The notes under the pieces were generated by a model. It ran no database searches. It saw only the letters and a program-made list of their open reading frames with translations, and had not been told where the DNA came from. 64,000 nucleotides of DNA from Kordiimonadaceae bacterium (GTDB lineage: Bacteria; Pseudomonadota; Alphaproteobacteria; Sphingomonadales; Kordiimonadaceae). The DNA is taken from assembly GCA_017640725.1 (NCBI GenBank), contig JAEPQB010000001.1, positions 1,798,001 through 1,862,000 of the forward strand, written 5' to 3'. Made by a program: the position numbers and the translations under genes. This document shows positions 17,481-22,574 of the stretch, piece by piece (position 1 is the stretch's first letter; every line of letters begins with the position of its first letter).

Positions 17481-17487
17481 ATGTTTG

Positions 17488-18105
17488 ATGAACAAGCAAT
17501 TGATACTGGTTTGTGCTGCTGGCTTTATGGTTTCTGCGCTGTCTACGGTGAACGCACTGGATCATCACGGTAAGGACAAAAAAACCGCAGCAGAAAAGGC
17601 CGCAGAGGCCCTCGCAAACATGAGCGATGAACAGCGAAGACTGCTGAATACAACACCCATAACCGGTGATCGTTATCCCTCACCGCCCGAGCCGCACTAT
17701 GGCCCGGAAACAGGCTCTATTCATTTTGAAGACAAAGACCCAGGCCCGACGATCGGCGGCACTATCACCATGAAGCCTGCTGTGGATGAAAACGGCAAGC
17801 AATTGGACGCCGCGAGCGAAGGCATCACCATGTATATGATCCATTGGGGCCTTGAAGTCGGCGAGCCGGGCACAGCCGACGATGCTGGTGCCGGTGACTT
17901 GGGCGGCGACTGTATGGGATTTCGGGATACAGGCCATGTAGTTGCGATGCCGGCGTCAGACGCGGGCGATGGCATGACCTGGGAAATCCCGATGGGAACC
18001 AAGGTACCCAGCGAGGCCGTTTATTTTGTAGGGCACACGCTATATGGCCGCATCCATAATTTGGCTAAATGCACTCAGACACCGATCCAAAACTGGGTCG
18101 AGTAA
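17488..18105 (+). CDS. Secreted protein of unknown function
   Basis: 205 aa, not recognised. The ATG at 17488 (preceded by GGGGAG) is chosen over the TTG at 17485. The signal peptide is MNKQLILVCAAGFMVSALSTVNA. The mature part is acidic, begins with a charged helix (HHGKDKKTAAEKAAEALANMSDEQRRLL), and then is probably all-beta. Two cysteines (CMGF and AKCTQ) could form a disulfide; HWG and repeated His residues hint at metal binding but are not diagnostic. It is 105 bp downstream of the MAPEG gene and convergent with the asparagine-synthetase-like gene. The ribosome site can pair with an upstream CTCCC. Confidence 0.75.
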   Translation: MNKQLILVCAAGFMVSALSTVNALDHHGKDKKTAAEKAAEALANMSDEQRRLLNTTPITGDRYPSPPEPHYGPETGSIHFEDKDPGPTIGGTITMKPAVDENGKQLDAASEGITMYMIHWGLEVGEPGTADDAGAGDLGGDCMGFRDTGHVVAMPASDAGDGMTWEIPMGTKVPSEAVYFVGHTLYGRIHNLAKCTQTPIQNWVE

Positions 18106-18136: not shown

Positions 18137-20053
18137 TTAATCTAGTACCGTGCGCTCTTCCTGGCCGGTAATCCAGACCAGCCCATAGTAGAGCCGCGAC
18201 CCGACCAACGCGAACTTAGTGGTCGCGAATTCACCTGATTGAATGGCCGCTAACAACTCGTCGCGATCAAGTATGCTCCAAACGCTGGAAGATCTTTCCA
18301 AGTCACCCGCCAACTCCAGGAAATGGTATTGCACGGCTTCCATATAGGCTTGCCTTCCCAAATTGTGGATGCCACGAATGTCGCCCTGCGGCCGTGTTAA
18401 TGCTTCCGCATTGACGGGTTGGGCGGTCATTTTACTCAATTCTGCCCTAACCAGTTTTTGTGGATCACTCATCAGCTCAACTGGCCAGTCACTGGCGGCA
18501 AATGGCACCTCAATCAGCCCAGGAACGCCGAACTGTGTCATTATGTCATAGGTCAATCTCGCCCTGTCGCGATCGTCGACAGATAGTGCCGCCTGCGCGG
18601 ATACCAGCCGCACATCATTCAAGGGCTCAAATGTGGGTCGGCTGTCGTTTATGACCTGGACCGTAAACCCACTGTGTCGCCAGCCCCGGTCTGCTAGATA
18701 ATAGGCGTCTTTAACGTTTGCTTCGCTAATGTCTTGGGCCAGAAGCCAATCAATTTGATGTTCGAAGGCGCGTGCAGCTTGGTGCAAAAATTCGTCCGTG
18801 AACAGTTGGTGAGTAAATCTGCTCCTCGAAATCAGTTGGGCCGCAAACTGCGCCGTGAACGTGGTTGAAGCCGCCCTCAAAAGTTGTTTCAGGCGCAAAC
18901 TCCAGCCTTCAGAGGCTGCCAGTGAACGGTGGTATGATTGCATTTTCTTTTGTTGATGTGGCTTGGTGCTGGGGAAGAATGATTTGGTCCGTGCTTCTGC
19001 ACAGCCCCCTCGCACTTGGGCAACATTACTAAGCCGCTCGACGCCTAACCCAGTATGAAACAGGTTTGATGAGCCCATCGATCGGAAAGCTGCGCGAGCA
19101 GTGGCAGCGATCGGGTCTATGATTTCACCAGGCCCGACATTAGATAGAAACCCTGACCGTTTCAGGTCAAAATGATTTATCAACCGGTTGGCCACACCAC
19201 GGTCTGGTCCTCCTTCGGGTCCACCGGTGAAAACATGAAAATTCCGCGCTTTGGCTCCGAGGAAACTGCCTAACACCAAGCGCGTATCCTTGCCGCCTGA
19301 TAGGTCAATGGCGAGGCCTCGATCTGGCAAAGTCTGCGCCAAACTATTTGCCCGTTTCATGAGGCCGGATGCTGCAGCGCGCATACTAGCCTCATAGGTG
19401 CCGTATTGGTTTTTCCATGGCATAGAAAAACGCTTTAACCTTGCTTGCTTGCCATCGCCAACAACAGCATAGCCTGTGGGCAGTTTTTCGACGCCAGCAA
19501 GACCGGTTTTTGTCCAGCCGCCCACACCAAATGCGGCTTCAAATGCGTTTGAAGTAAAATCCCGTTCACATGCAAACCCAAGCCGAGCGGCAGCCTTTTC
19601 AATGAGATGAAGAGAGTTGCTGATCAGCGTATGGCCGCTTCTTTCAAGGCGAAAAAACGCGTATTGGGACAGCGGGTCAGGTGAAAGCATAAACGAACCG
19701 TCTTCGTCTATGCGCGCCGCGCCAAAAACACCGGAAAGATGGATGGGAGTTTCGCCCGCAGACACGCCGTCCAGATAAGAGCTGATGGCCACCGCAGCGG
19801 CAGTTGGCGAACTGTTGTCTAGCAGATGGTTGTGGGCGCCGTCGTCCGAAATAAAGGCGCCATCCCAAAACACCAACGCCGGGTCATTGGGAGTGCTGCG
19901 GGTGTGAGGCGCCACACTTGAGATAACTGATATGCGACCAAGATGCGCTTCAAATGGCGCGGGAGTTACTACCCCAAAGTCCTGATCAGTGAACTGGCTC
20001 GCTGATAAGGTCGCTGGATTGCCACAGGTTGGGAAATGAATGACAAATTTCAT
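18137..20053 (-). CDS. Asparagine-synthetase-like protein lacking the amidotransferase cysteine
   Basis: 638 aa. The N-terminal ~200 residues follow the class II glutamine-amidotransferase-like fold (LSGVFGAARIDEDGS; PTGYAVVGDGK linker), but residue 2 is Lys, not the catalytic Cys. The C-terminal ATP-pyrophosphatase domain carries the PP-loop as LSGGKDTRL (251-259) in place of SGGxDS. Enzymes of this build that lost the cysteine include beta-lactam synthetase and lasso-peptide cyclases, which make an amide with another amine. Here no precursor peptide or partner gene lies beside it: gyrB is 67 bp upstream on the same strand. It could also belong to the AsnB-related proteins seen in polysaccharide loci. 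The function is open. Confidence 0.78.
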   Translation of the reverse strand: MKFVIHFPTCGNPATLSASQFTDQDFGVVTPAPFEAHLGRISVISSVAPHTRSTPNDPALVFWDGAFISDDGAHNHLLDNSSPTAAAVAISSYLDGVSAGETPIHLSGVFGAARIDEDGSFMLSPDPLSQYAFFRLERSGHTLISNSLHLIEKAAARLGFACERDFTSNAFEAAFGVGGWTKTGLAGVEKLPTGYAVVGDGKQARLKRFSMPWKNQYGTYEASMRAAASGLMKRANSLAQTLPDRGLAIDLSGGKDTRLVLGSFLGAKARNFHVFTGGPEGGPDRGVANRLINHFDLKRSGFLSNVGPGEIIDPIAATARAAFRSMGSSNLFHTGLGVERLSNVAQVRGGCAEARTKSFFPSTKPHQQKKMQSYHRSLAASEGWSLRLKQLLRAASTTFTAQFAAQLISRSRFTHQLFTDEFLHQAARAFEHQIDWLLAQDISEANVKDAYYLADRGWRHSGFTVQVINDSRPTFEPLNDVRLVSAQAALSVDDRDRARLTYDIMTQFGVPGLIEVPFAASDWPVELMSDPQKLVRAELSKMTAQPVNAEALTRPQGDIRGIHNLGRQAYMEAVQYHFLELAGDLERSSSVWSILDRDELLAAIQSGEFATTKFALVGSRLYYGLVWITGQEERTVLD

Positions 20054-20120: not shown

Positions 20121-22574
<2,454 letters not shown>

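Follow-up and report, generated by a model that had tools for sequence, protein, structure and literature searches.

The open reading frame at 18137..20053 on the reverse strand of the window (the whole 64,000-nucleotide stretch of DNA analyzed here) raises the question of what an asparagine synthetase-like (AsnB-like) protein does when the cysteine for glutamine hydrolysis is gone. The preliminary description had noted that Cys2 is missing whereas the PP-loop is kept (SGGKDT), and both points hold. The 638-residue product starts at an ATG with MKFVIHFP, so that residue 2 is a lysine, and SGGKDTR is found at residues 252-258 (19280..19300), or DLSGGKDTR in its extended form at residues 250-258 (19280-19306). 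An in-frame stop lies only 9 codons before the ATG, with no ATG, GTG, or TTG among those 9 codons, and no start codon followed by Cys occurs across the N-terminal 110 residues; Cys10-Gly11 is preceded by Thr and not by a start. The frame recurs at full length in a family of 15 genes with an intact PP-loop. All 15 begin M/V/L-[KEDN]-F, with Cys2 in none and no start with an adjacent Cys at the conserved N terminus, the single TTG-Cys being an unrelated one 37 codons upstream of the conserved start of one member. The full-length conservation in 15 genes, the invariant residues, and purifying selection in a close homologue pair confirm that 18137-20053 is a real gene and not a chance frame.

The protein is divided into three parts. 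Residues 1-209 (19427..20053) comprise an N-terminal Gn-AT-like (Ntn-fold) domain without the Cys nucleophile, delimited from alignments and the secondary structure of the model, with DG at residues 64-65 where AsnB has NGE. The ATP-pyrophosphatase (synthetase) domain, placed by model, profile comparison, and alignment, spans residues 215-535 (18449..19411) and contains both the PP-loop and, at residues 348-353 (18995..19012), the sequence RGGCAE, which replaces SGEGSDE of AsnB in the alignments. A helical region follows at the C terminus (residues 536-638; 18137..18448, from the alignment and the AlphaFold model), in which Trp592 and Trp627 are invariant and are retained even by the PP-loop-less branch described below. 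The Lys and Thr of the PP-loop are specific to the five-member clade of the window gene, with TGGxDSR in the other clades.

Sequence searches with the 638-residue protein against Pfam, NCBIfam, and the PDB gave no matches, nor did a search of PDB sequences with the 15-member family profile. The window protein matches neither PF00733 nor TIGR01536, the latter being weakly matched by two of the 15 members, and it is not matched by the lasso cyclase profiles NF033535 and NF033561, for which the best match in the family was one member to NF033561 (E = 0.058). The PADLOC profiles also gave no match to the window protein, and a role in anti-phage defense was dropped for that reason. The fold is more telling. 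An AlphaFold2 model built from the shallow 15-sequence alignment (pLDDT 85.6, pTM 0.87) retrieved only ligases of the AsnB superfamily as the top Foldseek hits in the PDB, led by TsnB9 (PDB code 7ylz, E = 9.8e-15) and followed by β-lactam synthetase, human ASNS, Escherichia coli AsnB, and carbapenam synthetase, and alignment of the family with canonical AsnB by hhalign gave a probability of 96.8%. The two-domain fold of the superfamily is thus recovered by model, Foldseek, and profile, the SGGxD PP-loop is present, and GGxD is invariant in the 15 genes. Judging from the predicted fold and the profile comparison, the window protein is a divergent AsnB-like protein consisting of an Ntn-fold without its nucleophile, an ATP-pyrophosphatase, and C-terminal helices. 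The preliminary description had reached the superfamily from motifs alone, and fold and hhalign now back it, although no profile library names the protein. The profile comparison that it had proposed favors AsnB over the lasso-type cyclases (see below), without placing the window protein in any ordinary AsnB family.

How far the active site departs from AsnB was judged by alignment. The 15 intact genes are full length at 23-42% identity, and Asp250, Gly253, Gly254, Asp256, Arg258, Arg348, Gly349, Arg456, Glu476, and Arg495 are invariant across them. Alignments of the superfamily and of sibling proteins place R-G-G-x-[AG]-E of the family opposite SGEGSDE, with Gly350 at the position of AsnB Glu348 (human Glu364) and Glu353 at that of Asp351 (human Asp367). 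In human ASNS, Glu364 and Asp367 touch the aspartyl moiety, the mutants E364A, E364Q, and D367A are inactive, and the acidic cluster Glu364/Asp367/Glu368 binds the aspartate amino group (PMC6748925). This cluster is absent from the window protein, whose corresponding residues are Gly350, Glu353, and one that is small or hydrophobic. With Glu364 changed to Gly and Asp367 to Glu, aspartate appears an unlikely substrate. The essential Lys449 of AsnB (human Lys466), located in WRQKEQF as numbered by alignment with 1ct9, aligns with no conserved Lys in the intact members, in a region where the alignment is weak; activity of the window protein is therefore not assured.

Our leading reading, to which we give about an even chance, is that the protein is a glutamine-independent, ATP-dependent amide ligase belonging to a new branch of the AsnB-like superfamily that is limited to one lineage, both the catalysis and the nitrogen source being deduced. 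The PP-loop SGGKDTR, with Asp256, would hold Mg-ATP; the carboxylate substrate would be adenylated, with loss of pyrophosphate; and the acyl-AMP would be attacked by an amine or by free ammonia rather than by ammonia derived from glutamine. Arg348-Gly349-Gly350-x-x-Glu353 would stand in for SGEGSDE, the invariant Arg456, Arg459, Glu476, and Arg495 may assume contacts with substrate or phosphate, and the Ntn-fold N-terminal domain would be left as a scaffold or interface.

Of the 30 genomes examined from the same GTDB family, 17 carry full-length genes of this kind, 22 in total. The PP-loop is intact in 15 of these genes, spread over 14 genomes, and degraded in the other seven. More widely, 301 order-level, 289 class-level, and 399 phylum-level genomes were sampled; they contained no further full-length member, and the partial matches did not exceed 56 bits. 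It is, so far, an unnamed AsnB-like family confined to one small group of marine bacteria. Plasmids and phages (searched by tblastn) and viral contigs held no match, so carriage as plasmid or phage cargo was dropped, and a recent foreign origin is not favored, since the GC and GC3 (0.53) of the window gene lie inside the range of its neighbors (0.52-0.66). Identity between L024 and L025, an intact pair, is 71%, compared with 86-97% for the syntenic flanking genes, with a dN of 0.19 versus 0.015-0.075 and a pair dS near saturation; by these estimates the family's rate of evolution is several times that of the genes beside it.

The genomic setting contributes little to the assignment. The gene does lie beside gyrB (20121..22553, reverse strand, ORF list), 67 bp downstream on the same strand, with recF-, dnaN-, and dnaA-like open reading frames also upstream and likewise on that strand. 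This location carries no information, since what follows gyrB is different in nearly all of the related genomes: the adjacency is incidental, and an operon-type functional link was dropped. The convergent gene on the other side, for a putative secreted protein of 206 residues (17485..18105, forward strand, ORF list), has orthologues in the slot after gyrB in two relatives that have no AsnB-like gene there. No riboswitch or RNA element was found near the window gene. The absence of biosynthetic partners was borne out, as no neighbor family recurs beside the intact members except syntenic orthologues and common enzyme classes. Amide hydrolases were considered as functional partners, namely an M24 peptidase 3 bp upstream of one member (L033:7769-11191), an M61 peptidase near another (L028:9140-13234), and a β-lactamase fold with M20 near a third (L030:7322-12205), and their recurrence was too low to build on. 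Directly after another member are a ShlB two-partner secretion transporter and an open reading frame of at least 2378 codons (L022:11052-19901). Probably, the window enzyme joins an acid to an amine without adjoining helper genes.

The strongest alternative arises within the family itself. At one syntenic locus, the gene is intact in a single genome (L026 of G017, TGGLDSR) and degraded in seven, including that of the window, whose own PP-loop-less copy is L021 (6806-8398, reverse strand, near 156,000 of contig C8); the others are L036-L040 and L118. All seven fall on a single tree branch with full support, and the loss of the PP-loop has a single origin. They are without Asp256, Arg348, Glu476, and Arg495, yet their frames remain open (530-686 residues), and most pairs are ~30-40% identical compared with mostly 55-90% for the flanking genes. 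For the 16 polar invariants found in the synthetase domain, 26% of cells are retained, compared with 79% for the invariants of the N-terminal domain, a difference in retention that is significant over all invariants (Mann-Whitney, p = 2e-4). The sole unsaturated pair, L036/L037, gave a dN of 0.124, a dS of 0.595, and a dN/dS of ~0.21, values consistent with purifying selection on the branch. In the AlphaFold model of L021, the N-terminal domain is confident and the C-terminal part is kept, with the ATP core below 50, and Foldseek still finds TsnB9 and AsnB. The branch is best read as having lost catalysis and kept another role, and the joint disappearance of these residues suggests that they form one site.

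Because a related branch persists without the ATP site, the window protein might itself be a non-catalytic scaffold or regulator that has kept the AsnB fold and can do without the chemistry, like the sister branch. The open frames and constraint of the seven degraded members and the parts conserved in the L021 model speak for this, as does the apparent lack, by alignment, of AsnB Lys449 from the intact branch as well. Conversely, the PP-loop and ~15 charged residues are invariant among very divergent intact members, a pattern difficult to account for unless the protein has a nucleotide-related or catalytic function, and we consider a non-catalytic protein unlikely. Returning to an amide ligase, a wider claim can be put forward tentatively: the family may represent a new class of AsnB-like enzyme that makes an amide through a rewired site, with Arg-Gly-Gly-x-x-Glu and the invariant arginines replacing GEGSDE and Lys449, is encoded by a fast-diversifying stand-alone gene, and has been the source of a conserved non-catalytic branch within the same bacteria.

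What such a ligase would act on is approached through relatives outside the family. In one-by-one comparison the closest were L165 (98.0%), L155 (97.7%), and L161 (97.4%), none with Cys2, followed by canonical AsnB (89-94%), with lasso-type cyclases the lowest of the AsnB-like proteins compared (73-75%). L161 directly follows TIGR03101 and TIGR03100 hydrolases near PEP_O_lig_1 (TIGR03097), and L165 lies near PEP_O_lig_1 (TIGR03097) with glycosyltransferase-like open reading frames and an acyltransferase alongside; both loci are exosortase-A exopolysaccharide clusters. L161, together with L155 and L114, belongs to a second unnamed Cys2-less AsnB-like family of orphans (sibNG), most of them solitary, for instance at a priA-atpH locus, and some in exosortase-A clusters. 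In sibNG and L165, a motif NG(G/S)GGE matches RGGxxE of the window family, and, as in that family, a PP-loop is present (SGG(Y/F)DSR) and there is no Cys2 and no Pfam match (three scanned); unlike the window family, they are ~570-600 residues long, their C-terminal 100 residues are unmatched, and their distribution is wider. The motif reads NGGGGE at the sibNG loci L155-L163, L108, and L111-L114, and in family f8 the position between priA and atpH is conserved, with no pathway partner. Right-handed β-helix proteins adjoin the sibling gene in two genomes (L111:9787-11421 and L112:9709-10929). Because some of these closest outside proteins are encoded in exosortase-A exopolysaccharide clusters, the acceptor would most likely be a cell-envelope glycan or a small carboxylate, the context of these relatives being all that favors this class.

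A more specific proposal, that the protein is a dedicated surface-polysaccharide amide ligase performing uronic acid amidation or amine addition in trans on an exosortase-A-type polysaccharide produced from another part of the genome, draws on the same clusters, on the PEP_O_lig_1 marker in the genome of the window, and on the uronamide precedent of AsnB-like WbpS in Porphyromonas gingivalis (PMC7468200). The distribution argues against it. The exosortase-A marker occurs in nearly all genomes of the family, but two carriers of the gene (G022 and G029) have no clear match to it, many marker-positive genomes are without the gene, and the two do not co-vary across the family genomes. The marker is too widespread to inform, so its co-occurrence was dropped as a clue, and no glycan cluster was seen around any family member. 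We give this proposal only a small chance.

The likeness to β-lactam synthetase and lasso cyclases implied by the preliminary description was not supported by comparison. A cyclase of RiPP, lasso, or β-lactam type acting on a distant precursor would share the superfamily, the absence of Cys2, and the Foldseek matches to β-lactam and carbapenam synthetases. However, no B2 or β-lactam genes are nearby, and the genome of the window has no member of the lasso B2 family PF13471, nor do 26 of the 30 family genomes; neither B2 nor an RRE protein or precursor was seen as a neighbor of family members, lasso-type cyclases show the lowest similarity among the AsnB-like proteins compared, and Gly occupies the catalytic Tyr/Glu position. 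The last point rests on sequence alignment: Gly350 aligns with the Tyr (Tyr348) of the Tyr-Glu dyad of β-lactam synthetase, at the position of AsnB Glu348. In a relative that does have a B2 protein (G018, matching NF033537), the adjacent AsnB-like cyclase is a different protein, scoring 17 bits to the family HMM; the transglutaminase-like B2 loci of G018 and G020 (L152:5255-10010 and L153:6309-8983) have AsnB-like proteins of their own. With no B2 in its genome and no partners, a lasso or RiPP cluster was dropped, and a cyclase of any of these types is highly improbable. An ordinary AsnB whose start had been called wrongly, the possibility of a restored Cys2 raised in the preliminary description, is excluded for practical purposes, because no such start exists in the window gene or its 15 homologues, the AsnB-specific acidic cluster is gone, and the same genome has two canonical AsnB genes elsewhere, its other PF00733-type matches being MnmA/GuaA-type PP-loop enzymes or of no assigned type.

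Among known systems, β-lactam synthetase is also without the nucleophile. The fold of β-lactam and carbapenam synthetases is shared with the window protein, which differs from them in the Gly at the Tyr position, the lack of pathway genes, and low sequence similarity, and lasso cyclases (NF033535) have in common with it an AsnB-like character and the loss of Cys2. The XrtA/PEP-CTERM amidotransferase (TIGR03108) and WbpS are set apart, as the window protein has neither a profile match to TIGR03108 nor a location in a polysaccharide cluster. AsnB (E. coli 1ct9, human ASNS) shares the domain order and the SGGxD PP-loop, but the window protein has no Cys2, no Asp-binding GEGSDE, and, by alignment, no counterpart of Lys449. 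TsnB9 (7ylz) is the closest structure, with an Ntn-fold and a PP-loop ATP-pyrophosphatase (TM 0.63 by target length), yet it starts MCG with Cys2 and has the SGE motif, both missing from the window protein (MKF); SaHAT, a homologue of TsnB9, uses ATP to activate a free carboxylate (PMC13418202). AsnB-like enzymes are a recurring source of new amide chemistry, from asparagine to β-lactams, lasso peptides, hydroxamates, and uronamides. The window family, which none of the profile libraries used here covers, has changed both the site of nitrogen supply and synthetase residues supposed to be essential; it would test how far this chemistry can be rewired and, through a branch under selection without an ATP site, offers a comparison of enzyme and pseudoenzyme within one genus.
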